From the NCBI RefSeq assembly GCF_002849615.1, contig NZ_PDNV01000001.1:310001-374000 (forward strand): a stretch of DNA of 64,000 nucleotides. Reading direction: 5' to 3'. Position 1 is the stretch's first letter. Every line of letters starts with the position of its first letter. The notes under the pieces are model-generated. The model searched no databases, was not told the DNA's origin, and worked only from the letters and a program-made list of their open reading frames with translations. Positions 28,949 to 61,544 of this stretch are shown here, in pieces. The position numbers and the translations under genes were made by a program. The DNA comes from Pollutimonas nitritireducens (GTDB lineage Bacteria > Pseudomonadota > Gammaproteobacteria > Burkholderiales > Burkholderiaceae_B).

Positions 28949-30376
28949 CTAGATGTGGGTGACGAACTTGGTGACCAGGTAACCGTCGAAGGTTTCCAGG
29001 CCGCCTTCGCTGCCGATGCCGCTGTCCTTGACACCGCCAAACGGCGTTTCGGGCAGTGCGCTGCCGAAATGGTTGATGTTGACCATGCCGGCCTCGATAT
29101 TGTTTGATGCCTTGGTGGCCGTCTGCAGTGAGTTCGTGAAGACATAGGACGCCAGGCCAAAGGGCAGGGAATTGGCGCGCCGGATGACGTCGTCGGTATC
29201 GGAAAACCGTGAGATTGGTGCGATGGGGCCGAAAGGCTCTTCGGTCATCAACATGGAGTCCTCAGGCAGGTCCGTCACCACAGTGGGCGAGAAGAAATGG
29301 CCCTTGCCGGCGATAGGTTCGCCGCCCAGCACGATCTTTCCGCCGCGTTCACGGGCATTGTCCAGGAATTTCGTCATGGTCGGTACGCGTCGTGCATGCG
29401 CCAGTGGCCCCATTTGGGTTTCAGGATCCAGGCCATCGCCAACCTTCACGGTTTTCAATGTATTGACGAAGGTTTCCAGGAACTGGTCATAGACGTTGTC
29501 ATGCACATAAAAGCGCGTAGGCGAGATGCATACCTGGCCAGCGTTGCGTACCTTAAAGCGAGCCAGCTGTTTGGCGGCACGGTCGATGTCGGCATCTTCG
29601 AACACAATAACGGGTGAATGGCCACCCAGTTCCATGGTGACGCGTTTCATGTGTGCGCCAGCCAGCGAGGCAATATGTTTGCCCACAGGCACCGACCCGG
29701 TGAAGGACACCTTGCGTACGATGGGTGAACGGATCAGGTAGTCGGATACTTCGGAGGGCACGCCCCACACGATGTTGAGCACTCCAGGAGGCAAGCCGGC
29801 ATCGTGGAACAGGCGGGCAATTGCCATGACGGCACTAGGTGAGTCTTCAGGGCCTTTCAGGATGATGGTGCATCCTGCGCCAATGGCGGCGCAGACCTTG
29901 CGTATGGCCTGGTTATAGGGGAAGTTCCAGGGCGTGAACGCCGCGCAAACGCCAATAGGCTCGCGCAGTACCATCTGGCGGATCTCGGGGCTACGCGGAG
30001 TGATGATGCGGCCATAAATACGGCGACATTCTTCGGCGTGCCAGTCGGCATGGTCGGAGCATGTCATGATTTCGCCAACGGACTCTGCCAAAGGCTTGCC
30101 CTGGTCCAGCGTCATGTTGCGACCGATTTCCTGGGCACGGTCGCGCGAAAGCTGGCCGACCTTACGCAGAATTTCAGAGCGCTGCATGGGCGAGCTATGG
30201 CGCCAGGTTTGGAAGGCGCGCGCGGCCGCTGCCAGAGCGCGGTCCAGATCAGCCTTGTTGGCATGCGGCAGGTGACCCAGGACATCGAGGGTCGAAGGGT
30301 TGGTGACTTCTTCAGTCTTGCGGCCTTCGCCGCTTACAAATTCACCGTCTATATATAGGGCTAGTGTCTCGTACAT
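28949..30376 (-). CDS. NAD(P)-dependent aldehyde dehydrogenase
   Basis: 475 residues from ATG 30376. ALDH superfamily motifs: cofactor segment FTPWNFPYNQ, FTGSVPVGKHIA, catalytic Glu in MELGGHSPVIV and catalytic Cys in NAGQVCISPTRFYVH, then FGPIAPI. It resembles succinate-semialdehyde-type dehydrogenases, but substrate specificity is not decided by these motifs. It oxidises an aldehyde to the acid in the cytoplasm. It is monocistronic; the flanking gaps are 175 and 256 bp. Confidence 0.88.
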   Translation of the reverse strand: MYETLALYIDGEFVSGEGRKTEEVTNPSTLDVLGHLPHANKADLDRALAAAARAFQTWRHSSPMQRSEILRKVGQLSRDRAQEIGRNMTLDQGKPLAESVGEIMTCSDHADWHAEECRRIYGRIITPRSPEIRQMVLREPIGVCAAFTPWNFPYNQAIRKVCAAIGAGCTIILKGPEDSPSAVMAIARLFHDAGLPPGVLNIVWGVPSEVSDYLIRSPIVRKVSFTGSVPVGKHIASLAGAHMKRVTMELGGHSPVIVFEDADIDRAAKQLARFKVRNAGQVCISPTRFYVHDNVYDQFLETFVNTLKTVKVGDGLDPETQMGPLAHARRVPTMTKFLDNARERGGKIVLGGEPIAGKGHFFSPTVVTDLPEDSMLMTEEPFGPIAPISRFSDTDDVIRRANSLPFGLASYVFTNSLQTATKASNNIEAGMVNINHFGSALPETPFGGVKDSGIGSEGGLETFDGYLVTKFVTHI

Positions 30377-30632
30377 AGTTGCGTTCTTCTCTCTGTCTGA
30401 GGGGAAATGACTCGCCATCCAATGGATCTAAGGAGCCTCGGGCTTTAGCATCCTCGATTCTAACTTCCTTAGTTGCTTGCATACAACGACGATGCACGTT
30501 CTTGCCAGTTAAATCATAATCTGGTTGGGGTCGCTCCCCTTCGCTCATTTCCCAAAAAGTGCGGACGTTCCGAATGCGACTTCAGACGCGTCATTCAATA
30601 CTTCGTGCTCGCCAACTCCGATCGAACGATTG

Positions 30633-32558
30633 TCAATAAGAAACCAGCATGTTAAAGAACAAGCCTTTAGTCCGGTCGGCGGCGCCACCTCCAACATCAA
30701 AGCGATACTGCACAGTAAAGTCCATATACGATTTCGAGGCGTTGTAGTGATCATCACGGAACCAGTAGCGTACGGTTACCCCTGGTCCCACAGCGGCTCC
30801 CCATGAAGCACCCGAACCTTGAAGATCAAGTCGGCCCAGACTGTCGCTTTGAATGCGGGTTTTATCCCAATACTTGTCTGCGGCCATGACAACGTGCGGG
30901 AAGAGGACAAGATTATTCACGATCCGGTCGAGGCGAAAGCTGCGACCGACGCGAGCCTCTGCCGTGACAAAGGCCCGGTCTCTGTATAGCCGCCCCGGCT
31001 CTTCGAACGTGTTTTCCAGTGTGCGTCCATGAATATGGGCCGACGAGTTCTGCCAGTAATATCCTGCCTGAACATAGCTGTCGACAGTAAACCAGCTTGG
31101 CACGTCGGTGCGCAGTTCCGTGCCTTCATAATGCGCATAGGTAGCGTACGCGAGCCAAGGTCCGCTGTCCGCCGCTGTCTTATAAGAAGCCGTCACTTTC
31201 GTGGGGTTCAAGGCGTGGCAGTCTTTTGCACCGATTCCGCTTTCACGTGTGGCTCTGCCTGAATTGAATTGACGTTCAAGGCCGAACGTCAGCTGCAGTT
31301 CAGTCGACGGTGTAAATCTTAAACCGAGGGCGCCTACTGTGCTGGGGAGGCCAGAAACGCTTTTGAACCTCTGACTAGTATCCACGGGTCCGATGCAAGG
31401 GTCCGTCTGGGCAGCAAGACCGCTAGCTGAGCTATATAGCGTGTTGCTTGCACGGCCATATACTTCAAATACGCGCGTTGGCGTATTGAGGAAGGCCGAA
31501 GGTCGCCAGTAGCCCTCCGCGACACTAAAGATAGCGTCGCCGGGCTGAATCAGCGGTGTGCCGCCGGTGCCAGATGATAATGCGCGGCCCGCACGATATC
31601 CGATCGCAACATAGCCGCCCCATTCACGTCCCAGGCCTGCGATATTCTGACGGGTCGCGTAACGTCTATCGGAAGACAACTCGAACATGCCGGCATCCGC
31701 GTTGTCGATTGCCTCCTTCAGCGTTAACGCTGCACCGCGTTTGTCGCCAGCCGAGGCTTGAGCATAGCCCTCATCCAATATAGCCGAGGGGGGAGCACGT
31801 CCCGTTGCTCTTGCAGTTCGGAAGTCTTTGAGAGCGAGCGTGGGTTGACCGAATCGTTGACGCAAATACCCTCTTTGCATCAACAGTTCGACATCGCCTG
31901 GATGCGACGCCAGCAAATCATCGATCAAAGCCAGGGCTCGTGCAGCTTGAGCATCGTCGCCTGCGGCCAGAGTAGTAATTAACAGGCGCTTCCAGCGCAC
32001 ATCATTGGGCGCTAGGGCGATGGCCTGCTGAGCCTTGGCAAGCGCCATGGGGTAATCCTGTTGAGCGTATGCAGTGTAAGCCTCCTGGGCTGAGGCAGTC
32101 GCCTGTCGATCGCGCACTGCGGCCGCGTCTGCCGACACGGAGGATCCGAGTTTGCTTGAATGCGCGCCGTCACGAGGCGACGGGTAATTCCCGGACTCGG
32201 AGCCAGCCACCGCGCTAAGCGCGGGGTCGCTCAAGCCTGCCGCGATCGCCTGGCGGGCCTCATTCCGTGCCTGGTCGTTCCGGCCCTCCTTCTGCAGGGC
32301 GTAAATCAGCAACAAGCGCAGGCTTGCCAGATCCGGCCTAAGCTTGATAGCCGATCTTGTCGCCTCCTGTGCTGCCGCGAAATTGCCGCTATTGAATGCC
32401 TTATAGCCTCGGTCTGCATGTTTCCATGCTTGGCCGCTCAGCGGGCGCTGAGCTTTCTCTGCCGCGATCGACTTGTGAGCTGCAGCACGTGCCGTCGTCG
32501 TCTGCGGGAGGTTAAAGAGAATAGCTGTGAGCGCAAAGATGAAGGCGATATGGCGCAT
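30633..32558 (-). CDS. nfrA: NfrA-like outer-membrane exopolysaccharide exporter (phage N4 receptor family)
   Basis: 641 residues from ATG 32558, chosen for the signal peptide (MRHIAFIFALTAILFNLPQ...ARA) and GGGAG-type Shine-Dalgarno. TPR-like helical repeats fill about residues 45-300 (ADRGYKAFNSGNFAAA, AYTAYAQQDYPMALAKAQQA, LLMQRGYLRQRFGQPTLAL). The C-terminal half is a beta-rich outer-membrane domain (GGYVAIGYRAGR, VRYWFRDDHYNASKSYMDF) with an aromatic end. E. coli NfrA is the phage N4 receptor and the proposed outer-membrane port for the polymer made by NfrB. It starts 1 nt after nfrB. It is shorter than E. coli NfrA (about 990 residues), with fewer TPRs. Confidence 0.82.
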   Translation of the reverse strand: MRHIAFIFALTAILFNLPQTTTARAAAHKSIAAEKAQRPLSGQAWKHADRGYKAFNSGNFAAAQEATRSAIKLRPDLASLRLLLIYALQKEGRNDQARNEARQAIAAGLSDPALSAVAGSESGNYPSPRDGAHSSKLGSSVSADAAAVRDRQATASAQEAYTAYAQQDYPMALAKAQQAIALAPNDVRWKRLLITTLAAGDDAQAARALALIDDLLASHPGDVELLMQRGYLRQRFGQPTLALKDFRTARATGRAPPSAILDEGYAQASAGDKRGAALTLKEAIDNADAGMFELSSDRRYATRQNIAGLGREWGGYVAIGYRAGRALSSGTGGTPLIQPGDAIFSVAEGYWRPSAFLNTPTRVFEVYGRASNTLYSSASGLAAQTDPCIGPVDTSQRFKSVSGLPSTVGALGLRFTPSTELQLTFGLERQFNSGRATRESGIGAKDCHALNPTKVTASYKTAADSGPWLAYATYAHYEGTELRTDVPSWFTVDSYVQAGYYWQNSSAHIHGRTLENTFEEPGRLYRDRAFVTAEARVGRSFRLDRIVNNLVLFPHVVMAADKYWDKTRIQSDSLGRLDLQGSGASWGAAVGPGVTVRYWFRDDHYNASKSYMDFTVQYRFDVGGGAADRTKGLFFNMLVSY

Positions 32559-32559
32559 T

Positions 32560-34263
32560 CTAAAGGGCTCCCGTAGAAAGACTGGATTCGGTGTGACTCG
32601 GCCGGAGTAAGCCTTCCTGGTCCATTTGAAAGGAGAGCGCTTCATCCACAATGGAAGGCTCAATCATTTTCTCGCGAACAAGAACCTGACCCAGCACCAT
32701 TCCCGTTTGCTGCTGTATCTTCAGTGCACGCTCCAAGTCAGCTTCATTTATTGCTTGCCAGGACAACAATAGGTCCCCTAACCGCTCCCGCTTGCGCACT
32801 AATTGCTCGTCCGACGGGAAGTCGTGCATAGTTTTATCCCAGACCAATGGCTTTCCGGTGAAAAGGTGAACGATGAACTGGCGCCAAGCGCGACCGGCTG
32901 CCATCGCGTTAATTGCATTGCCAAGCACCATACGTGGAATAGACAGCAGACCATGCTCCCATCCGTACATGCTGCTCACGAAATAAAAGCGCTGCACGGC
33001 ACGAAGCAATAGTGCAGCAGAATTGGCTGCCATCAACGGGATCAACCAGCTGTCGGGAGCAAAAAGCGAGGGATAATAAACGGTCCACAGACCGAGATGG
33101 TCCGCTGCGACAAAGAGAAGAAAATTGAGCAGAAGAAAATACGCGGCGATTGCGATGAAGGACGTGACCAGACCCTTGCGATCGCGAAGCAGCAGATATC
33201 TGTTTGCCAGGCTTCCTTCCCAGCCCACCTGTGTCCACCCCTGCAAACTGATTCCCAATGTCCATCTCGCCTTTTGCCGGTATGCCGCACGGAACTTATC
33301 GGGGAAATATTCGCGCACGCTCATCGGTAGAGTCATTGAGTGAACTTTGAGTCCGCCCAAACCGAAGAATGCATGGCGCTGAGCTATATATTGCACTGGG
33401 AATTTGCCGAATATCTGCTTCATATTCCGGCGGGCCAGACGCGTGCCGATGTCGTAGTCTTCGGTAAGCGTTGCTGTGTTGAAAGGCTGGTTGTTGGTCT
33501 CGGCTGCCAAGTCGGCAAGGGCGCGTTTGGAAAAGCATGTTCCTACGCCCGCAGACGGTACCATTCCAGTGAGACTTTCGCGGACGACCAGATCCTTGGT
33601 ATGCCACTCGGCAAATTCGTCCATATATGTTCCGGCGACAAATTCATGCCATCCCCTTTCGAGGGAAGTGACCGGTAGCTGGACAAAGTCAATTCGCGGC
33701 AAAAGATAATTAAAGTATTTAAGTTCGAGGGGATGCACCACATCTTCGCTATCGTGCAAGACCATGCCCGCAAACTTGATACCTCGTTTCTTTTCCTCGA
33801 GAAAAGCTGCTTGAACGATCCAGTTGAGACAATCTGCCTTATTAGTCGGCCCGGCATGGGGAACTTCGACCCGGATAAGATGGCGATAGCGCCGCCGCAT
33901 ACGCTCCACTTCTGCAATGGTCCGTGCATCATTGCAGTAAGTCCCGGCAAACAACATGTAGTTTTTGTACTCTAGCGTCGCGACCATGTTTTCCAGCATG
34001 GGAGCGATTACATCGAACTCGAGCCAGGCGGGAATCATAATGGCGAGATGCTGTTCGTCTTTCTCGCGAAGCTGCAGTTCGGTAAGGCGAGGATGATGCG
34101 GTCTGATCGTGAAGTAGCGGCGAAGGCGCCTTAGCCAGAACCACGTGTCGATGAACAGATCATCCGCCGTGGACACAAATATGAAAACGCCGACTATCGC
34201 AGCGAGGAACTCCAGCGAGCGATAGTAGTCGGCAAAGAAGTACGGCCAAGACAAATTAGACAT
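32560..34263 (-). CDS. nfrB: NfrB-like family 2 glycosyltransferase with C-terminal c-di-GMP-binding domain
   Basis: 567 residues from ATG 34263. An N-terminal membrane helix (18-32) precedes a GT2 domain with DSED (171-174), TED (267-269) and QKARW (330-334), the processive-synthase signature. Membrane helices follow at about 366-388 and 405-422. The C-terminal domain at about 494-546 fits the MshEN/GspE-N pattern RLGxxL...L..AL..Q......LGxxLV. In E. coli NfrB this domain binds c-di-GMP and activates synthesis of a ManNAc-containing polymer. The gene lies between the BcsB-like gene and nfrA in one operon. Trp replaces the usual Gly after RLGDLLLS, a variation worth noting. Confidence 0.85.
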   Translation of the reverse strand: MSNLSWPYFFADYYRSLEFLAAIVGVFIFVSTADDLFIDTWFWLRRLRRYFTIRPHHPRLTELQLREKDEQHLAIMIPAWLEFDVIAPMLENMVATLEYKNYMLFAGTYCNDARTIAEVERMRRRYRHLIRVEVPHAGPTNKADCLNWIVQAAFLEEKKRGIKFAGMVLHDSEDVVHPLELKYFNYLLPRIDFVQLPVTSLERGWHEFVAGTYMDEFAEWHTKDLVVRESLTGMVPSAGVGTCFSKRALADLAAETNNQPFNTATLTEDYDIGTRLARRNMKQIFGKFPVQYIAQRHAFFGLGGLKVHSMTLPMSVREYFPDKFRAAYRQKARWTLGISLQGWTQVGWEGSLANRYLLLRDRKGLVTSFIAIAAYFLLLNFLLFVAADHLGLWTVYYPSLFAPDSWLIPLMAANSAALLLRAVQRFYFVSSMYGWEHGLLSIPRMVLGNAINAMAAGRAWRQFIVHLFTGKPLVWDKTMHDFPSDEQLVRKRERLGDLLLSWQAINEADLERALKIQQQTGMVLGQVLVREKMIEPSIVDEALSFQMDQEGLLRPSHTESSLSTGAL

Positions 34264-34273
34264 CGCATGCGTT

Positions 34274-36532
34274 CTATTTTTTCTCGCGTCGCCGGCCCGC
34301 TTTATAAGCCAGTGCCAGGAGGACAACAAAAAACAGGACAATAGCTGATATCAACGGCACGCCCCATGATAAATAATGACGCCATTCGTAAAACGCACTA
34401 TTCGCTGCATCCGCGATTCGACTTGAATCCGGGTGAGCGCTATCTATCCATGCGACCGGTCCTTGTGGTCCGATTAGTGTCACGTCGCCCCGATCCAGCA
34501 CATAGGCGGGCGACGGCGTGTCAAGGGATTCGCCATGGCTTTGCCATATCAAACCACGGTGGCCACCGGATTCAGCAACTTCAATCGCTGTAATGCCGTC
34601 CAATCCAGTGATGTCGAGCCATGTCACGCCGCGCTTTGCAACGGCGATTTTGCCCGACTGCGTCACCCCGACCTTGGATTCGACGCCTTCCACCGGGACA
34701 TTCATGGCAATAAAAGCGGTCTGTGGTTGTACCGGTTTCCCTTCGGGAACGGACACCAGTTTGGTGTGTGTCGCCGATAGTCCTGTGGCCACTGCCAGCC
34801 GCGCTATTTGCATGATGCGAGCGTTGCCTTGGCCTGCCCAGGTATCCGGTACGATCAGGTCCGGGGAAGAAGCAAGAGAAGGCAATAGACCAATGAAGGT
34901 TCCATCTGGCTCTGCTTTCCCTATTTCCAGATAGCTGGTGGGCAATACACTGACCGGATAGCCCCGGACCGACTGAGCGCACCCGCTGGCCACAGGAAGA
35001 CGCTGGACTTCTACGCGCAGCTCATTACTCAAGCGCAGTGCATAGCCAGGGATGCGCGCGGAAATGCGCTGCTTTTCTCCGTCGGCACGTAATTGGGCTG
35101 CCGTGAGCAAGGTGTCGTTCAGCAGTACCGAGACCACCGGGGAAGTGCCCGAGGAGTCGGGAGCAATGGCCAGATCCAGTGCGAAGCGGGTTGGCATCTG
35201 GCCATTAGGCGATACGGCGCCCAGGGCGAACTCGCTCGTCCAGTGCCCCTGGTTCGAAACTTGGAAGCTTCTGAATGAAGCGCCGAGGCTGGATAAGCGT
35301 ATCTGATTTTCGTTGGTGAAGTCGGGGCGAGAGGCTGCTTCAACTCGAACACGGCTGGATGTCAAAATCTGGCGCCAGGTATCGGAAAGCAGGCCGGCGG
35401 CCTGTGGTCCCGCTTGCGCGCGAACAGCAATGATAGGGCGAGATCCGGAAATCTCCACCCACAGGTCGGCGTTTAATGCTTCGCCCCCCGTCAAGGCGGA
35501 CCGCTCGCGCCATGCGTCCATCGCCGCTGTCGCCGCGACATCTGGAGCCAGCGCCTCGGCCAGTGCATCGAGGGCTGAACCCATTTTTCTGCGTAGGCTC
35601 TCGTCGATGATGACGATATTTCCAGTCGCCGCCTGCGCATCCAGCAGAATGAGTGCGCCGATGTCCGCTTCTGTGCCAATCTCAAACCCTGATTGTGCGC
35701 GTCGTATTGCATCAAAAACACTAGTTTGACGCATGGCGTCTGGGATACGGATGCCTTTCGTGTCAATGACATCGCCGATCTTGGGGAATTGACCGACTTT
35801 GACACGCTTTCCCGCTCGTTCAAGAACAGTGGCGATACGCCAAGCCGCATCAAACGCAGCCGCGCTGCTTTGCTCGTCGCCGACGAGCAGCAGCGGATCG
35901 GGCGGCAAAGCGCCCCACGCCGACTTTAATGAAAAAGGAAGGGCGGTCCTGTAGCGATAACTTATGCCGGTTTCATCGCTGATCGATAGCGTGCTCAAAC
36001 TTGCGGGCGTGACTTGGCATGCTTGAAGATCGTGGTTGGAAAACCAGTTGATACCCAGCCGGACAAAGCCGGAATTGCTCGATTGAAGTTCCAGCGGGAT
36101 CGCCACTTCGACTGACCCCTCCTTATCGCTGAAAGATCTGATCATTACCGGCTGACCGTCGACAAGCAGTTGCAGCAGCGCTCCCGCCTCATCCATTAGA
36201 TAGCGCGCCTTGAACTTCAGTACGATGTCATCCAATGCCACGGCCGCCGGCACTGGAAAATAGACTTCCTGGTAACTATCGGAACCTGGCGTGGCCGGAC
36301 GCAACGTTATTCCCATGCTGCGTAAGGAATAGGCCTGCTTATCCCAGCCAGGATGGACGGAATGCTCCAAGGATAGATCGGTCGGCTCGGTTTCTATGGG
36401 CTGAGCGTTGGATATGAAGGAAAGGCTCAACCCAGCACCTAAGAGGATGCCATGAAGGACCCGTCGGGCCTTTGCGATGAGCCCTCGCCTTGCATCGCTC
36501 TTGGAGGAAGTGAAGTGCCGATAATTAAACAT
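34274..36532 (-). CDS. BcsB-like periplasmic membrane-anchored protein
   Basis: About 752 residues if started at ATG 36532; ATG 36553 or 36619 are in-frame alternatives, and none has a clear Shine-Dalgarno, so the start is uncertain. A basic N-terminus plus hydrophobic stretch (VLHGILLGAGLSLSFISNAQP) acts as a signal sequence. A long periplasmic region with BcsB-type jelly-roll/flavodoxin-like segments follows (FPVPAAVALDDIVLKFKARY, VRLGINWFSNHDLQAC), then one C-terminal membrane helix (LSWGVPLISAIVLFFVVLLALAY) and a basic tail. BcsB guides cellulose through the periplasm. This protein probably does the same for the NfrB product. It overlaps the wecB stop by 8 nt. Confidence 0.75.
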   Translation of the reverse strand: MFNYRHFTSSKSDARRGLIAKARRVLHGILLGAGLSLSFISNAQPIETEPTDLSLEHSVHPGWDKQAYSLRSMGITLRPATPGSDSYQEVYFPVPAAVALDDIVLKFKARYLMDEAGALLQLLVDGQPVMIRSFSDKEGSVEVAIPLELQSSNSGFVRLGINWFSNHDLQACQVTPASLSTLSISDETGISYRYRTALPFSLKSAWGALPPDPLLLVGDEQSSAAAFDAAWRIATVLERAGKRVKVGQFPKIGDVIDTKGIRIPDAMRQTSVFDAIRRAQSGFEIGTEADIGALILLDAQAATGNIVIIDESLRRKMGSALDALAEALAPDVAATAAMDAWRERSALTGGEALNADLWVEISGSRPIIAVRAQAGPQAAGLLSDTWRQILTSSRVRVEAASRPDFTNENQIRLSSLGASFRSFQVSNQGHWTSEFALGAVSPNGQMPTRFALDLAIAPDSSGTSPVVSVLLNDTLLTAAQLRADGEKQRISARIPGYALRLSNELRVEVQRLPVASGCAQSVRGYPVSVLPTSYLEIGKAEPDGTFIGLLPSLASSPDLIVPDTWAGQGNARIMQIARLAVATGLSATHTKLVSVPEGKPVQPQTAFIAMNVPVEGVESKVGVTQSGKIAVAKRGVTWLDITGLDGITAIEVAESGGHRGLIWQSHGESLDTPSPAYVLDRGDVTLIGPQGPVAWIDSAHPDSSRIADAANSAFYEWRHYLSWGVPLISAIVLFFVVLLALAYKAGRRREKK

Positions 36533-37685
36533 AGGAAGCCAAAACTGAATCATGAATATGTAATTCGGCAACGGGCCGCCCACATAATGCGTCAACAATC
36601 CGCCGACTTGCCAATCCATCGCCGTACGGATTGCTTCTTCTGCCGAAGCGCCGGTATTGCTCTTCGTCGTCCAGCAAAAGATTGACGTTGGCCACGATAC
36701 GGCTAGCGTCGGTACCTACAAGCCTTGCCGTGCCGGCCGAAATTGCCTCCGGGCGTTCAGTAACGTCACGCATGACGAGTACCGGCTTCCCTAGGAAAGG
36801 TCCTTCCTCTTGAAGGCCACCTGAATCAGTCAACAGAATATGGGCGCGCTGCATAAACCATACGAAATCAAGGTAATCCAAGGGATCGATTAACTTCACA
36901 TTCGGGGAGGAACCCAGCGCCACGTAAACCGGCCCACGGATATTCGGATTCGGATGAACAGGATAGACGATCTGTAGATCATCCCGCTTGGCCAGCTGCT
37001 TTAGCGCTACGCAAATACCATCGACGCCCGATCCGAAGTTCTCGCGGCGATGCCCGGTAACGAGCAGCAGACGGCGGGTAGGATCAAGCCAAGGGAAGCG
37101 TTGTTCGATCCCGGCGCGTAGATCGCTATCATTGAGCAACTTATCCTTCATTAAAGAAATTGCATCGATGATGGTGTTGCCCGTGACCCATAACCGTCCA
37201 GTGGCGCCAGCTTTTACCGCATTCCTGCGGGCAGCATCAGTAGGTAGGAAGAGGTGTGTGGAGAATATATCCAGAACGCAGCGATTCATTTCCTCGGGAA
37301 ACGGCTGGCTCATGTCCCCAGTGCGCAGACCCGCCTCCACATGCCCGACGGGAATGCGCCGGTGAAAGGCGGCCAGACCGCAGGCCATTGCTGTGGTCGT
37401 ATCGCCATGGACCAGCACATAATCCGGTTTGGTTTCTTCAAGTACATTGTCAATCTTTCGCATTAACCGCGACGCAAGTTGATTCAAGCTTTGATTGGGC
37501 TCCATGATGTCTAGATCGAAATCTGGCTTGAGGCCAAAAAGATCGATGATGGGGTCGAGCAAGCTACGATGTTGCGCGGTGACGCATAATGCGCTCTGAA
37601 CATTGGCCTCTTGCTGAAGCGCGAGCACGAGCGGCGCCATTTTGATTGCTTCTGGACGGGTACCCAGGATTGAAAGAACTCTCAC
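36525..37685 (-). CDS. wecB: UDP-N-acetylglucosamine 2-epimerase (non-hydrolysing)
   Basis: Interconverts UDP-GlcNAc and UDP-ManNAc in the cytoplasm. 386 residues from GTG 37685; the only nearby ATG (37698) is out of frame. Motifs: GTRPEAIKMAP, catalytic Asp95 in VHGDTTT, Glu117 in GHVEAGLRTG, Glu131 in PFPEE and His212 in TGHRRENFG, matching E. coli WecB positions almost exactly. TDSGGLQEE closes the active site. It is the first gene of the wecB-bcsB-like-nfrB-nfrA operon. No wecC (ManNAcA dehydrogenase) is nearby, pointing to ManNAc rather than ManNAcA as the product used here. Confidence 0.93.
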   Translation of the reverse strand: MRVLSILGTRPEAIKMAPLVLALQQEANVQSALCVTAQHRSLLDPIIDLFGLKPDFDLDIMEPNQSLNQLASRLMRKIDNVLEETKPDYVLVHGDTTTAMACGLAAFHRRIPVGHVEAGLRTGDMSQPFPEEMNRCVLDIFSTHLFLPTDAARRNAVKAGATGRLWVTGNTIIDAISLMKDKLLNDSDLRAGIEQRFPWLDPTRRLLLVTGHRRENFGSGVDGICVALKQLAKRDDLQIVYPVHPNPNIRGPVYVALGSSPNVKLIDPLDYLDFVWFMQRAHILLTDSGGLQEEGPFLGKPVLVMRDVTERPEAISAGTARLVGTDASRIVANVNLLLDDEEQYRRFGRRSNPYGDGLASRRIVDALCGRPVAELHIHDSVLASYV

Positions 37686-37715
37686 ACTGCGTAGCCATTA
37701 AAGGTGCAATAGGAA

Positions 37716-38708
37716 ATGTGGGATAACCACTTAAATTTTTCGGTGGAGCGGCGTAGGCTTTTGCGCTGGATTGCCATCGCGGGGCTGTTGCCAATCTCGA
37801 GCGGCGAAGGCCTACCTAAACCGTTTACGGCGACTTTTTTTCAGCCATGGAAAGAACATGTCGCGCAGCCTAATCAACAATGGGTTACGTTGATTAACAG
37901 AATGCGCCAATTCGGGTGCCGTCGAATTATCCTTCAGTGGATAGGAATTAACAAGGCAAACGATCAGTGGCAAATTGCCGACGCCACTATCAAAATGTTA
38001 TTGGACAAGTGCCTCGATACGGGATTGTCTTTACAGATCGGGCTGCCATATGACGGCGACTGGTGGGATATGTTGCAGCTGAACAACGACTCCAAATTAA
38101 TGGAGGCGTATCTGGAGACCACCGCGCGATATTGCACCGACTACCTTGCGCGTGCGGCTTGGCCGGATCATCCCGCCTTCTGCGGCTGGTATATCCCGTA
38201 CGAAATCGAGCAACATAGCTGGTCTACGACGCAGCGCCGAGAGCTGCTAATTCCCTGGCTGGGGAAAATCAGTCAGGCGTGCTTGATGGCATACCCGGAA
38301 CGCAGCCCCGGAGTTTCGACTTATCTGAGCGTCTTATCTAATAGCGCTCTGCTCCCTGATCTGTGGGACCAGATCTTAGCTGACGTCGCGCTGCATCCCA
38401 TGATCCAGGACGGCGTCGGGATCAGCGGGCTATCCAATTACGTGGCGCTTGCACCGCTTCGCGGGTTGCTTGTGGATCGCGGCGTCGAGTTCGACCTGAT
38501 TTTAGAGTTGTTCGAACAGACGTCTTCGCGGAGTGGAAGCGAGCCATTCGAAGCGCGTAGCGCGACCTACGGTAGGTTGCGTTCTCAACTAGAAATTGCA
38601 GAGTCCTACGGAGCGAAGGACATCGTTGCGTTTGCAGTGGATCCTTGGATGGTGGGCAACTCGCCAAGCGCACACAAGCTGCAGGCAGCATGGCGCGCCT
38701 CATATTGA
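37716..38708 (+). CDS. DUF4434-like protein with probable Tat signal
   Basis: 330 residues. The N-terminus VERRRLLRWIAIAGLLP looks like a twin-arginine signal (Arg12-Arg14 then a hydrophobic stretch), so export is likely. The body has TATFFQPWKEH, a Trp-rich GCRRIILQWIGI segment, GLPYDGDWW and FCGWYIPYEIEQ. This resembles the DUF4434 TIM-barrel family, related to glycoside hydrolases and often found in exopolysaccharide loci. It is divergent from wecB with only 30 bp between starts, so the two units share regulatory DNA. A hydrolase or trimming role for the NfrB polymer is a guess. Confidence 0.65.
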   Translation: MWDNHLNFSVERRRLLRWIAIAGLLPISSGEGLPKPFTATFFQPWKEHVAQPNQQWVTLINRMRQFGCRRIILQWIGINKANDQWQIADATIKMLLDKCLDTGLSLQIGLPYDGDWWDMLQLNNDSKLMEAYLETTARYCTDYLARAAWPDHPAFCGWYIPYEIEQHSWSTTQRRELLIPWLGKISQACLMAYPERSPGVSTYLSVLSNSALLPDLWDQILADVALHPMIQDGVGISGLSNYVALAPLRGLLVDRGVEFDLILELFEQTSSRSGSEPFEARSATYGRLRSQLEIAESYGAKDIVAFAVDPWMVGNSPSAHKLQAAWRASY

Positions 38709-38911
38709 GAGTGCCATCGCCTGTTCCCCGTGCGTGAAGGTTTGCATACCGCATCGACGCTTCGATGCATGGAGCGGGATTCCATATAGACAACGCTCTG
38801 GAATCGAAAATTGGTTGTTTTTGTAAGAAGATGGCGTAACCTTCTTATTCAGCCGGTTCAACTGTCAAAGGTGCGTTGTTCTCCTGGATGACCAATATTT
38901 ACTTATTGTGC

Positions 38912-38940
38912 TTGCAATGTGGGCATAGAAAAGCTATCAT
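38912..38940 (+). promoter_or_regulatory. Promoter of the spc operon
   Basis: TTGCAA (38912-38917), a 17-bp spacer, and TATCAT (38935-38940). Near-consensus, and the only strong candidate between the DUF4434-like gene and rplN. Confidence 0.65.
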
Positions 38941-38947
38941 ACGAAAC

Positions 38948-38999
38948 TTGCCTACAGTAGACGCCAAAGCAGCTTTGCGTAGGCAATACGAGTTTTTTT
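38948..38999 (+). terminator. Attenuator-like terminator in the spc leader
   Basis: TTGCCTAC (38948-38955) pairs with GTAGGCAA (38979-38986). An inner hairpin CAAAG/CTTTG (38965-38969/38973-38977) sits in the loop. Six nucleotides later comes a run of seven T (38993-38999). It lies between the promoter and rplN, so it should limit read-through into the spc operon unless antiterminated. Confidence 0.6.
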
Positions 39000-39113
39000 A
39001 GCAGATTTCAACCCAGGGCTGGTGCAGCTGCCAGCCTGACGGGACCAAAACTGGTTGTGTGGCGCCACTAATCGTTAGTTGCGCGGTGCGGCTAAGTTGG
39101 AACAGGAAAAATC

Positions 39114-39482
39114 ATGATCCAAATGCAGACCACGCTGGACGTGGCCGATAACACTGGCGCACGCAGAATCATGTGCATCAAGGTGTTAGGCGGCTCGAAG
39201 CGCCGTTATGCCGCTATCGGTGACATTATCAAAGTTAGTGTCAAAGATGCGGCCCCACGCGGGCGCGTCAAAAAGGGCGAGATTTACAACGCTGTAGTGG
39301 TTCGCACCGCTAAGGGCGTTCGTCGTAAAGACGGCTCGCTGATCAAGTTCGGTGGCAACGCTGCCGTGTTGCTCAACGCCAAACTGGAACCCATCGGTAC
39401 CCGTATCTTCGGACCTGTCACGCGCGAATTGCGTACAGAAAAGTTCATGAAGATCGTGTCGTTGGCTCCAGAAGTGCTGTAA
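39114..39482 (+). CDS. rplN: 50S ribosomal protein uL14
   Basis: Subunit-interface protein and the target of the silencing factor RsfS. 122 residues, opening [21 protein letters not shown], typical. First gene of the spc operon, here detached from rpsQ. Shine-Dalgarno ACAGGA precedes the ATG. Confidence 0.98.
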
Positions 39483-57527: not shown

Positions 57528-58553
57528 ATGTCTCCAGTTAAAGAAGGTCCCGGTATCGAAGTTCGGGCGAATCTTTTGGCTAATAAGGCGCTTGCTGCTC
57601 AGCTAAGGGTTTTGCATGCTTTTGTGCCATTGGAAGGATGGCTGGTCGGACCCTGCGCCGAACAATCTTCGTTGTTCGCAACCTCCGGGCGGTTTGAAAT
57701 CCTGTCTTCGACTGATCTGGCATCACTATTCCAGGGGAACTGGATTCCCGATCCTCTCAACGACGGATTTTTCTATCGTCACGTCGTGGAACACGAAAAG
57801 CAGCGCCTTGCGCTGGACTCGACCTCCGGTCGAGGCGCGGCTTACCTGATACGGGCCGATCTGCAAGCCCCTGACTCCGAAAGTCGAGGTTCCGCCATAG
57901 GCCTGGCATACGACTGGCCGTTCAGCATCGCCCGGCGTACCCAAGAGGTCCGCTCATGCTTGACCGCATTAGCCCTGACGCTTGCCCTCCACGCGGAACT
58001 CGGCCTGGCTGAGCGTCTGATGCTCGAACTGCAACGTGATGCGTTTCTGGATCCCCTGACCGGTACGCTGAATCGTGCAGGCTGGATCAACCGGCTCGCA
58101 CATATCGACGCAATGACTGGCAACGATGGCACCGATGCGGCCATATTCATGCTCGACCTTGACTACCTCAAGACAGTCAACGACACGCAGGGTCATTCTG
58201 CGGGCGATGAACTCATTCGGCTGACGGCGCAAACCATTTCCGCCGTGTTGCGCAATAACGATGCGGTAGGCCGTCTCGGCGGCGATGAATTCGGCATCGT
58301 GGCACAATATGCCACGCCGGCTGGCGCCGCCGCCCTGATGCAGCGGCTCAAAGAGTCCTTCATGAAAGTCGGCATCAATATTTCGTTGGGCATGGCGCTA
58401 AGGTCGGAAGCCGGTTCATTGAAGAAAACCATGCATATGGCCGACGAGCGCATGTACGAAGAGAAACGCACCAAGACCGCGCCGCGCCGCGTTACGCTTA
58501 CCAGCCAGCCAACCCGTGTCGCCAGCTACGCCGCCGCCCGATCAAGCACCTGA
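57528..58553 (+). CDS. Diguanylate cyclase (GGDEF) with N-terminal GAF-like sensor
   Basis: Makes c-di-GMP from two GTP. 341 residues, no membrane segment or signal peptide. The N-terminal 160 residues look like a GAF-type sensor without clear ligand residues. The GGDEF domain has DPLTGTLNRAG, DLDYLKTVND and the active site GGDEF at 251-255. An inhibitory I-site RNND is at 242-245 with correct spacing, so product inhibition is expected. AAGAAGA precedes the ATG at 57528. Convergent with the next gene. It could feed the NfrB system, but no direct link is shown. Confidence 0.9.
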   Translation: MSPVKEGPGIEVRANLLANKALAAQLRVLHAFVPLEGWLVGPCAEQSSLFATSGRFEILSSTDLASLFQGNWIPDPLNDGFFYRHVVEHEKQRLALDSTSGRGAAYLIRADLQAPDSESRGSAIGLAYDWPFSIARRTQEVRSCLTALALTLALHAELGLAERLMLELQRDAFLDPLTGTLNRAGWINRLAHIDAMTGNDGTDAAIFMLDLDYLKTVNDTQGHSAGDELIRLTAQTISAVLRNNDAVGRLGGDEFGIVAQYATPAGAAALMQRLKESFMKVGINISLGMALRSEAGSLKKTMHMADERMYEEKRTKTAPRRVTLTSQPTRVASYAAARSST

Positions 58554-58589: not shown

Positions 58590-61544
58590 CTAGCGCTTGC
58601 GTAACCGATGCCGGTCATCGTCATCACGATGTTTCGCGGCAATCTCTTCAATGAACTTCAAAACGTCCTTGTCGTTGATCAGGTCGGCTAAGGAATTGGC
58701 GCTTAATATATCTGCTGGTGATTGGGCTTTGGAGACGACAAAGCCTTGAACGTAGTCGACGCCCATGTCCCGGAGGGTACGTAAAGTAGCGTAGTCTTCT
58801 GCCCACTCGGCAATGCTCTTCATGCCCAGGTTGCGGGCCAGTTCGATGATCGTACGAACAATGGCCGTGTTGGTTTCATTGGCCATCATATCCTTGATCA
58901 ACGCACCGTCAATCTTGATGGCATCAGCCGCCAATTCCTTAAGATATGAAAATGAGGTGTATCCGGCGCCGAAGTCGTCCAGTGCCACGAAGGCACCCAT
59001 CTTTTGCAGACGTTTCATGAATACACGGGTGCGGTCAAGGTCTTGCAATGCCACACCTTCGGTGATTTCGACACAAAGCCGACTGGCAACCGTTTCGTGG
59101 CGTTCCAGCATGGCGAAGAATGAGGTGATGAATTTTTCATCGTTCAGCGATACGCCGCTCAGGTTGACATTCACCATTTCCGTATTGGCCAGCCGATGCT
59201 CATGTTTAGCCAACCACTCAAGCGTCGCAGAAAAGACCCATTTATCAATAATGGTGATCGTTCCGTTTTCCTCGGCCGCCGCAATAATTTTCCCTGTCGG
59301 GACCAGCGCGCCCGTGGAATTTCGCACGCGCAGCAGGACTTCGAAGTTGAGTGTTTGCAGCGGATTTTTCATCGACATGATGGGCTGCATTTCGAGGTAT
59401 AAGCCGCGCGGTGATTCGCTGCCCTCCAGTTCATCGAAAAGCCGCAGTTCTTCGGTGTGCTCCTGCAGTGCTTCGGAGTCCTGTTCGTAGACTACGATGT
59501 CCCGGTGTTGCTTGCGTGCGTCCCTGCACGCGCGTCCCGCTGCCGAGATCATGTCCTTGGAATCCATGTTCGAGGTGATTTCAATGATTCCGATGGCGCT
59601 GTTTAACTGGTAGGCTCGTTCCCCTACGTACAGGGCGGTGGAATTGAGATGCTGAATGACCGAGACGGCTGCGACACGCGCCTGAGCTATGGTGGCATTT
59701 GGAAATAGGATAAGGAACTCGTCCCCGCCGATACGGCCTACCTGCTGTTGTGGCGTCAGGGCTTTTTTGATGCGTTCGCACACCCGTTTCAGGACTTCGT
59801 CGCCCGACATGCGGCCGAACAGACTGTTGATGCGTTTAAAGGGGTCCAGGTTGATGTAAGCCAGAGCGCAAGGTTCCCCGGTGCGCAAGCGCTCCAGAGA
59901 CGTATTCAACGCTTTTTCTATCCCCCGCCGATTCAGTACGTTGGTAAGCGGATCGTTATCGGCCAGTAGTTGCAACTGATTAATGGTCTCGATGCGCGAA
60001 GTGATGTCTTGCAACGAACCTTCAATTTGCTTGTCGGCGAGTGCGATTCGGATGACGAAATGCTGAGGAATGCCAGGTTGGCTGGATTCGGGCAGCCGTT
60101 CCAGCTCAACTTCGTCACCCGATTTGGTCTTTTCGGCCAACGCGAGCCAGTCCTGGGAAGGGAAGTAGTCGGTCCAGCGCTGCACATTGCTACGACCAAG
60201 CGAAAAGCCGAGCATCCGTTCGAGTACCGGGTTGACGCGCACAAAGACGCCGTCGAGACCCAGAGTAAACATGCCCAGGGGCGCCACCGCATAGTTGCTG
60301 ACCAGTTCCGTTTGAGCGCGTACGCGCTCCTTGCGCTCTTCGCGCATTCGTTCGGCGACCGCCAAGGCGACGATGATGTTCGACAACAACAGGGCAATCA
60401 CACTATTGAAGGTGTCAACGAAGGCGGTACGACCAAAGATGGCCAGCATCGTCCCAGACAGTACGATGCTTAGAGACATGCCCAATATGATGAGATGCCA
60501 GATCCACCTTTGTGTTCTTGCAAGAAATACGCAGCGTGTGAGCATGAGGATAGCCACCAGGACGCCGAAGCCGCAAGTCAGCCACATAAAGGTCTGGAAG
60601 AACGCAGAAGGCAAGACCAGGGCGCCGATCAGTAACGCCAGGCCAGCCCATTTGGCAGCACGCCAGAGCCCGGAGAATCCTGGCGGGAAACCGATCTGAT
60701 ACAGTTTGGTCAGCAAAGAATAGGTAAGCAGATAGTAGGCTGCAACCGTGAGCCGCCTGATAAGCGGCATCCAGTCCAGTGGAATGGCATGGCCCAGCCA
60801 CAGGCTATCCCATCCCAAGGCAAAGGCTCCCAGACGCAGATTGCCCACGAGCCATGTGGCCAGCAATAAGTAGATCCATTCCCTGTTGGTGATCGCTATG
60901 ACGAGGATGAACAGGGCGATGGTAAGCAGCCCGCCTTCCAGAAGTCCCGTTCCGCGATCGAAGCGACTTGTCGAGGCACGAAGGTCGGGTTCGGTCCAGA
61001 GTTCGGCCGAAAGAATTCCGGTGTCGACAAAGCTTGCATAGCACAGGAGCGATGTGCGAACGGGAACATGACCGAGCGATACAGCGAAGCCCATCTTGCT
61101 GCTGCGCACTGAACCGATTGCTTCACTTCGGCTTGCAACGCCCAAGTTGCGCAATAGGTTTGCGTCAGCTTTCCAGCATTCCAGCGTTTGCGTCAGGGGC
61201 GAGGGGATGTGAAGCACCGCTTCGTCAATTTTGGGAGACGCCGGGATGTCCGCCAAAAACCAGCTGGGCGATGATGCCTTTGTCAGTTGCACCGCTGGCA
61301 GGGTATGCAGCGCCGCCAGCGCCCGTGAAGGCGTGTATTGGGAATCATTCTCCGGCAAGAGCCGGATGGAAACACGGTCGCCATGAGTAAGCGGATATTG
61401 GGTACTCAGGGCGTACAAAGCCAGGCCTGACAGGATGATGATCGCAGCCGGCACCACATAAAGCGAGAAGTAGTAAACCAGTTGATCGGCTACTGTGGTG
61501 AGCTTCTTGAGAGAAATAGTGCGAAGCGCGTTTCGAGCCGTCAT
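58590..61544 (-). CDS. Membrane GGDEF-EAL protein with PAS domain
   Basis: 984 residues. A first membrane helix (about 24-46), a periplasmic region to about 200, then a set of membrane helices (203-395) of 7TM-sensor type, a PAS domain (about 415-520), GGDEF (active site at 606-610) and EAL. The EAL signature is EVLLRV at 735-740. Other catalytic residues are present: NLSG, EITEG, DDFGAGY, IKIDG, AEWAE and VQGF, so phosphodiesterase activity is plausible. No RxxD I-site precedes GGDEF (TPQQ instead). Net direction (synthesis or degradation) cannot be told. Confidence 0.92.
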   Translation of the reverse strand: MTARNALRTISLKKLTTVADQLVYYFSLYVVPAAIIILSGLALYALSTQYPLTHGDRVSIRLLPENDSQYTPSRALAALHTLPAVQLTKASSPSWFLADIPASPKIDEAVLHIPSPLTQTLECWKADANLLRNLGVASRSEAIGSVRSSKMGFAVSLGHVPVRTSLLCYASFVDTGILSAELWTEPDLRASTSRFDRGTGLLEGGLLTIALFILVIAITNREWIYLLLATWLVGNLRLGAFALGWDSLWLGHAIPLDWMPLIRRLTVAAYYLLTYSLLTKLYQIGFPPGFSGLWRAAKWAGLALLIGALVLPSAFFQTFMWLTCGFGVLVAILMLTRCVFLARTQRWIWHLIILGMSLSIVLSGTMLAIFGRTAFVDTFNSVIALLLSNIIVALAVAERMREERKERVRAQTELVSNYAVAPLGMFTLGLDGVFVRVNPVLERMLGFSLGRSNVQRWTDYFPSQDWLALAEKTKSGDEVELERLPESSQPGIPQHFVIRIALADKQIEGSLQDITSRIETINQLQLLADNDPLTNVLNRRGIEKALNTSLERLRTGEPCALAYINLDPFKRINSLFGRMSGDEVLKRVCERIKKALTPQQQVGRIGGDEFLILFPNATIAQARVAAVSVIQHLNSTALYVGERAYQLNSAIGIIEITSNMDSKDMISAAGRACRDARKQHRDIVVYEQDSEALQEHTEELRLFDELEGSESPRGLYLEMQPIMSMKNPLQTLNFEVLLRVRNSTGALVPTGKIIAAAEENGTITIIDKWVFSATLEWLAKHEHRLANTEMVNVNLSGVSLNDEKFITSFFAMLERHETVASRLCVEITEGVALQDLDRTRVFMKRLQKMGAFVALDDFGAGYTSFSYLKELAADAIKIDGALIKDMMANETNTAIVRTIIELARNLGMKSIAEWAEDYATLRTLRDMGVDYVQGFVVSKAQSPADILSANSLADLINDKDVLKFIEEIAAKHRDDDDRHRLRKR

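Follow-up and report, generated by a model that had tools for sequence, protein, structure and literature searches.

A probable Nfr-type exopolysaccharide operon with a BcsB-like gene and a divergent ybcH homolog at a variable chromosomal site of Pollutimonas nitritireducens

In our study, we analysed a stretch of 64,000 nucleotides of Pollutimonas nitritireducens (GCF_002849615.1, contig NZ_PDNV01000001.1, positions 310,001-374,000 of the forward strand), called the window here, and within it a cluster of five genes for a putative Nfr-type exopolysaccharide system. All five genes were found at window positions 30633-38708, where a first-pass annotation had placed them (Table 1). The genes wecB, BcsB-like, nfrB and nfrA were found to form an operon on the minus strand, and a DUF4434 gene, homologous to E. 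coli ybcH, was divergent from it. The searches with domain profiles named nfrA, nfrB, wecB, DUF4434 and, weakly, BcsB, as had been read earlier from the sequence. The wecB stop codon (36525-36527) lay beyond the ATG of the BcsB-like gene (36532), giving an overlap of 8 nt, followed by 10 nt between the BcsB-like stop and the nfrB ATG (34263) and 1 nt between the nfrB stop and the nfrA ATG (32558). These spacings agree with the first-pass annotation for the gene starts used here, which were chosen by the authors; three of the five mechanical open reading frames start further upstream. From start codon to start codon, no more than 30 bp (37686-37715) lay between wecB and the divergent DUF4434 gene, so the promoters either reach into coding sequence or sit elsewhere. 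A chance layout is excluded by the identical gene order in dozens of further genomes, and the reading of wecB-BcsB-nfrB-nfrA plus the DUF4434 gene as one operon-level system is well supported.

Table 1. Window coordinates of the five genes of the cluster, of the genes flanking the variable site and of the two GGDEF domains
Feature	Position	Strand	Predicted product or domain	Length or score
nfrA	30633..32558	-	outer-membrane export protein, TPR repeats and NfrA_C barrel domain	641 aa
nfrB	32560..34263	-	processive GT2 synthase, single C-terminal MshEN-type c-di-GMP motif	567 aa
BcsB-like gene	34274..36532	-	periplasmic protein, predicted C-terminal membrane helix	752 aa
wecB	36525..37685	-	non-hydrolysing UDP-GlcNAc 2-epimerase, GTG start	386 aa
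ybcH homolog (DUF4434)	37716..38708	+	TIM-barrel protein, predicted to be an exported glycoside hydrolase; Tat-like RRR at the N-terminus	330 aa
aldDH	28949..30418	-	aldehyde dehydrogenase (PF00171), left flank of variable site	
rplN	39114..39482	+	first of ribosomal protein run, right flank of variable site	98-100% identical, five genomes of the genus
GGDEF domain (PF00990)	58041-58475	+	diguanylate cyclase-type	99.5 bits
GGDEF domain (PF00990)	59499-59960	-	diguanylate cyclase-type	109.3 bits

The linkage of these families, seen by the first-pass annotation in one genome, was found to be widespread. The strict order wecB, BcsB-like, nfrB, nfrA was present in 66 of 80 named loci, which are the best 80 of at least 579 confirmed places found with an NfrB alignment; they therefore stand for the closest relatives and were not drawn at random. 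These loci extended across Alpha-, Beta- and Gammaproteobacteria and included Achromobacter, Bordetella, Pandoraea, Paraburkholderia, Acidovorax, Pseudomonas, Microvirga and Martelella. Three of the 80 loci (L071, L090, L108) were cut by contig ends; in L087 nfrA was found upstream instead, and L073 and L116 contained no nfrA match. Within the order of the host, NfrB at E <= 1e-60 was sparse (16 of 399 sampled genomes, that of the window included). Where NfrB was at least 56% identical to that of the window, the BcsB-like gene was present in 8 of 9 whole-genome loci, its own included, and a contig end intervened in the ninth. All nine whole-genome loci with an E. coli-like NfrB (about 40-44% identical to that of the window; E. 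coli 42%) contained wecB and a DUF4434 gene close by. Of 61 related genomes, exactly five matched PF14488 (DUF4434), and the same five matched PF13283 (NfrA_C); they belong to five genera, and the count is uncorrected for kinship.

The nfrB product scored 886 bits with PRK15489 and 558 bits with the NfrB model PRK11234, under that model's own cut-off of 1170, and shared 42% identity with its E. coli counterpart across 540 aligned positions. A search of the Protein Data Bank (PDB) by sequence gave nothing at E <= 0.001. The DxD, TED and QxxRW residues of a family 2 glycosyltransferase (GT2) were present, followed by a C-terminal MshEN-type domain (NF053729, 56-61 bits, cut-off 38), which is predicted from its residues to bind cyclic di-GMP (c-di-GMP). 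D171, D269 and W334 corresponded to D169, D267 and W330 of E. coli NfrB, and TED together with the Q, R and W of QxxRW was invariant across 15 NfrBs. The equivalents of E. coli L490, G491, L518, G519 and L537 were also identical. Effects in E. coli are reported for changes of D169, D267 and W330 in the transferase and of L490, G491, G519 and L537 (the last tested with L490) in the c-di-GMP domain (PMC8669469; PMC8669472), and L518 is also in the residue list of Sellner et al. (PMC8669472). The window NfrB contained one MshE-related motif and no tail, and 32 of the 80 named NfrBs likewise stopped soon past the motif, the remaining 48 having a tail (in L089 the tail length was mismeasured). A further MshE-related motif was found in the tails of E. 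coli NfrB (L240:4945-5559, 43.0 bits) and a Herminiimonas NfrB (L077:11639-12133, 39.1 bits), both above the cut-off of 38; the tail of a Pseudomonas NfrB (L098) scored 27.6 bits, under it. The nfrA product was found to contain the NfrA_C domain (PF13283, E 9.6e-30, 103.8 bits, cut-off 25), with TPR matches close to their cut-offs.

Several results weigh against the reading of the cluster as one Nfr system with BcsB as a part. NfrA was only 641 aa long and gave no significant match in a direct BLAST comparison with E. coli NfrA (best E 0.035). wecB was not in place in 6 of the 80 loci with a full upstream flank (L064, L065, L068, L070, L116, L121), and two Collimonas loci (L076, L086) had the NfrB class of the window without a BcsB-like gene. 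None of the nine loci with an E. coli-like NfrB contained a BcsB-like gene, and E. coli NfrB works without such a protein.

The DUF4434 protein, labelled DUF4434-like in the first-pass annotation, was found to belong to the family of E. coli YbcH: it scored 162 bits with PF14488 and 78.8 bits with PRK09936 (under the model cut-off of 344), and matched YbcH with BLAST E 2.4e-11 at 25% identity. Its profile found only chance-level matches in the PDB by sequence, as did that of the BcsB-like protein, so fold comparison was the sole informative route for both. The AlphaFold2 (AF2) model was a (beta/alpha)8 TIM barrel with a predicted local distance difference test score (pLDDT) of 88.1 and a predicted template modelling score (pTM) of 0.85. 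The nearest solved fold, 4h41 (Z 26.5, rmsd 5.5, 275 aligned), is that of a putative fucosidase; GH42, beta-amylase, GH164 and GH5 enzymes followed (Z 16-18). The entry 4zn2, a glycosyl hydrolase by its title and presumably PslG of Pseudomonas aeruginosa, aligned with Z 16.7, rmsd 4.1, 270 positions and 13% identity, and 9g17 (PslG) was also among the Foldseek matches. Of 999 aligned chains, 990 reached Z >= 8, and the 50 rows listed were mainly glycosidases. Glu163 ends strand 4 (155-165) of the model and was Glu in all 62 non-gap rows of 63 sequences (one gap), and Glu264 ends strand 7 (260-264) and was Glu in 63 of 63; YbcH of E. coli itself and sequences from nine loci of the E. coli class belong to the set. 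Retaining glycosidases of clan GH-A have glutamates at the ends of these two strands. The barrel model and the two conserved glutamates make a periplasmic polysaccharide hydrolase, and not a scaffold, the most likely function of the DUF4434/YbcH protein.

The opposite reading takes YbcH for a scaffold, or for a protein that binds carbohydrate, with a borrowed glycosidase barrel and no catalysis. It follows the proposal for E. coli, where Junkermeier and Hengge (2021, PMC8669469) termed it a putative periplasmic scaffold. In the same paper phage N4 infection is described as not requiring YbcH, and the motility effect as depending on it only in part; such weak effects of ybcH loss speak for the scaffold. 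The Foldseek top 50 also contained barrels other than glycosidases (betaine-homocysteine methyltransferase, sugar epimerases). We consider the scaffold unlikely, since the glutamate pair is kept in E. coli-type as well as BcsB-type loci, with a single gap, and the closest solved folds run from the putative fucosidase to PslG. An RRR motif followed by a lipobox-like cysteine was found in seven near homologs with a visible N-terminus. The window protein kept the arginines, which makes the Tat signal proposed earlier plausible, and lacked such a cysteine, a point against the overall reading of the system. The word "hydrolase" was absent from the main texts of PMC8669469 and PMC8669472, and no description of a hydrolase role for YbcH was found among the matches listed by searches of the open-licence literature. 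A remote DUF4434-like gene (24-47 bits with the profile of the window protein), with both glutamates kept, was also found downstream of nfrA in many loci with a long NfrB (L072-L121).

The wecB product scored 453 bits with TIGR00236, matched PDB entry 1vgv with E 8.7e-133 and was 54% identical to E. coli WecB. R10, D95, E117, E131 and H213 of the E. coli enzyme, which we take to be its catalytic residues, were all identical, and epimerase activity is predicted. wecB was the sole Epimerase_2 gene of the genome. Four congeners contained neither an Epimerase_2 nor an NfrA_C gene, so that within the genus wecB and nfr occur together or not at all. In a tree of 65 wecB sequences, the window wecB was found among the nfr-linked wecBs, and a separate branch contained the E. 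coli WecB of the enterobacterial common antigen (ECA), E. coli-class enzymes and most of the nearer unlinked enzymes. The exceptions were L094, a Polaromonas locus of the BcsB class with an E. coli-class wecB, and the unlinked L130 among the nfr-linked sequences. When twelve remote rows were removed, the nfr/BcsB-linked wecBs (without L094) and L130 formed one side of a branch with support of 98 in the Shimodaira-Hasegawa-like approximate likelihood ratio test (SH-aLRT). The approximately unbiased (AU) test did not reject a placement of the window wecB on the ECA/other side (p-AU 0.306), which counts against a firm link to nfr. On the descent of wecB, raised as a check in the first-pass annotation, the best trees group it with the nfr-linked wecBs and not with ECA, and the alternative was not rejected.

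This outcome bears on the sugar. A polymer of N-acetylmannosamine (ManNAc) is postulated for Nfr, without a chemical structure, in PMC8669469 and PMC8669472, and the effects of wecB and wecC in E. coli are reported to indicate uridine diphosphate (UDP)-ManNAc (PMC8669469). A different product, for example a polymer like cellulose or N-acetylglucosamine (GlcNAc), with WecB serving a separate envelope pathway, would fit the AU test, a sugar identity that is postulated in print and a BcsB-like partner reminiscent of cellulose synthase. We regard it as improbable: the only Epimerase_2 gene overlaps the next gene of the operon, NfrB-type models score far above PgaC (16 bits), no cellulose synthase family was among the profile matches listed for NfrB, and the published E. 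coli effects point to UDP-ManNAc. The polymer here would probably be ManNAc-containing. Acetylation by an MBOAT-type route is improbable for the polymer of this strain, since the aldDH-rplN interval contained no acetylation genes and the genome no MBOAT gene; the genome-wide search covered MBOAT and no other acetyltransferase family.

The sequence of the BcsB-like protein speaks little for its name. It matched PF03170 with 22.4 bits (cut-off 21) over 72 residues only, was not listed in a family-wide PF03170 search at E <= 0.001, and found no BcsB among its chance-level PDB matches; these results count against a BcsB. Its AF2 model (pLDDT 82.9, pTM 0.80) gave a clear answer: in the Foldseek comparison ranks 1-22 all went to BcsB chains from cellulose synthase structures (best E 2.5e-24). 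The template modelling (TM) score of these chains was up to 0.58 by target, and the other matches listed reached at most 0.12 by query. A helix at 714-751 closes the model and suits a membrane anchor. The first-pass label therefore holds for the fold, the sequence match being borderline, and the modelled protein is of BcsB fold. That it is a degenerate passenger of the operon with no role in synthesis, as the marginal Pfam score and the absence of the gene from E. coli-type loci and two Collimonas loci might suggest, is very hard to credit beside a full-length fold with its membrane helix, a position next to nfrB in 76 of the 80 named loci (by an adjacency rule that wrongly failed L089, whose BcsB-like gene scores 870 bits), and a mean column identity of 46% with 24 invariant columns over 45 BcsB-like sequences from those loci and the window.

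The first-pass annotation had taken the cluster for a distinct synthase-dependent system, a view that is not supported, since clusters of this type are already in the literature. Clustering of nfrA, nfrB, wecB and a BcsB homolog in Achromobacter xylosoxidans, also a betaproteobacterial host, was described by Sellner et al. (2021, PMC8669472), and the nfrB-wecB linkage across species and the E. coli nfrBA-ybcH operon by Junkermeier and Hengge (2021, PMC8669469). The A. xylosoxidans cluster has periplasmic O-acetyltransferases according to PMC8669472, whereas none lie beside the window operon. E. coli K-12 shares the NfrB, NfrA, YbcH and WecB families, with NfrB active-site and MshEN residues identical to those of the window. 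It differs in having no BcsB-like gene, a distant wecB in the ECA operon, a downstream and co-directional ybcH instead of a divergent one, and an NfrB of 745 aa with an extra MshE-like motif in its tail in place of 567 aa.

The division of labour resembles that of cellulose synthase BcsA-BcsB-BcsZ-BcsC, with a c-di-GMP-activated GT2, a periplasmic BcsB fold, a TPR-barrel exporter and a glycosidase-type enzyme; BcsZ is the glycosidase-type periplasmic enzyme of the cellulose system. Unlike cellulose synthase, the window has MshEN instead of PilZ, NfrA instead of BcsC, an epimerase of its own and a different NfrB family, and its BcsB-like protein has no significant sequence match to BcsB of the PDB. 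PslG has a glycosidase barrel near the DUF4434 model but belongs to the Psl system.

The cluster was found at a site that varies within the genus. In the window this site spans 30419-39113, from aldDH to rplN. Five species of the genus carried nfr (one), cellulose genes (one, G001, with BcsE, BcsG, BcsA with PilZ, BcsB and BcsC), a Tad/Flp pilus (one, G004) or LapD, a LapG-type protease and an RTX adhesin (two, G002 and G003, whose contigs stop short of aldDH). With rplN as a marker, matched in 187 of 200 family genomes, the site was located in 85. Here nfr was found in 2, cellulose in 5, LapD in 16 and Tad in 1 (24 together), and 31 sites were empty, with an aldDH-rplN distance of 0.27-1.5 kb. 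The remaining sites contained other genes before aldDH (9), had no aldDH in reach (19) or were too short (2). The LapD label was given by similarity, and the LapD_MoxY_N domain was also present in 14 of the 16 (not in G514 and G559). Genus g21, with four genomes, contained nfr, cellulose and empty sites; in genus g2 both cellulose and LapD were seen. In g21, the nfr copy was in a different orientation and had an acetylation module; in the nfr locus of the relative G024 (L169:2483-8365) ybcH and nfrA were separated by MBOAT, FkbH_N and two ALGX genes, an alginate-like module for acetylation that is missing from the window locus.

The two sampled of the nine sites with other genes (L199, L217) contained ABC transporter parts, an aminotransferase and a gamma-glutamyltransferase, and the partly annotated sites without aldDH gave, among the genes sampled, a LysR regulator, a TonB receptor, a gamma-glutamyltransferase, an oxidoreductase and a metal ATPase. 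A site reserved for surface modules only was therefore rejected. As a control, 29 of 94 LapD_MoxY_N places in the 200 family genomes were found within 4 kb upstream of rplN. Cellulose-type BcsB was within 20 kb upstream of rplN in 7 of 59 genomes, a count that omits nine genomes with a weak match only, taken as nfr-type. The random expectation is about 0.5% for 20 kb in a 4-Mb genome, the genomes being related and the events not independent. A LapD-type c-di-GMP receptor gene directly upstream of the rplN operon was seen in many family members (e.g., L158:2606-4591 and L159:4729-6681). No description of the aldDH-rplN variable site was found among the matches listed by searches of the open-licence literature; one study there reportedly deals with a Bordetella pertussis mutation that lies upstream of rplN.

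The YbcH barrel with its glutamates, the DUF4434/NfrA co-occurrence and the variable site were not met in the available text of PMC8669472 or PMC8669469. Taken together, the proposals that aldDH-rplN is an exchange site beside a ribosomal operon where relatives swap whole surface-attachment modules (Nfr polysaccharide, cellulose, LapD/LapG/large adhesin, Tad pilus), which would give close species different matrix systems at one position, and that YbcH/DUF4434 is a dedicated Nfr polymer hydrolase mistaken for a scaffold stand, in our estimate, at about even chances.

With the gene identities, the operon layout, the conserved catalytic and c-di-GMP residues, the two predicted folds and the co-occurrence, the cluster is very probably an Nfr-type synthase-dependent exopolysaccharide operon of a BcsB-containing sub-class, working as follows. 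WecB would convert UDP-GlcNAc to UDP-ManNAc, and NfrB, an inner-membrane GT2 polymerase activated by c-di-GMP through its MshEN domain, would build the polymer, probably ManNAc-containing. With its C-terminal helix as membrane anchor, the BcsB-like protein would lie against NfrB on the periplasmic side and there guide the chain, as BcsB does for BcsA. The TPR and barrel regions of NfrA would then pass the chain to the surface, and DUF4434/YbcH would trim or clear the polymer, like BcsZ, PgaB and PslG elsewhere. The whole genome contained 13 GGDEF domains as a potential supply of c-di-GMP. No diguanylate cyclase was linked to the operon; the two GGDEF genes of the window, about 20 kb distant, are possible, unlinked sources.

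One operon here unites what E. coli splits over two loci, which makes it a handy unit with which to reconstitute Nfr polymer synthesis and identify the polymer. If YbcH is catalytic, it would be a glycosidase-type periplasmic enzyme of the kind present in other synthase-dependent systems, and it may serve as a tool for stripping the phage N4 receptor. If whole modules are exchanged between aldDH and rplN, the variable site would explain differences in matrix type within the genus, and hence in the likely phage receptors.

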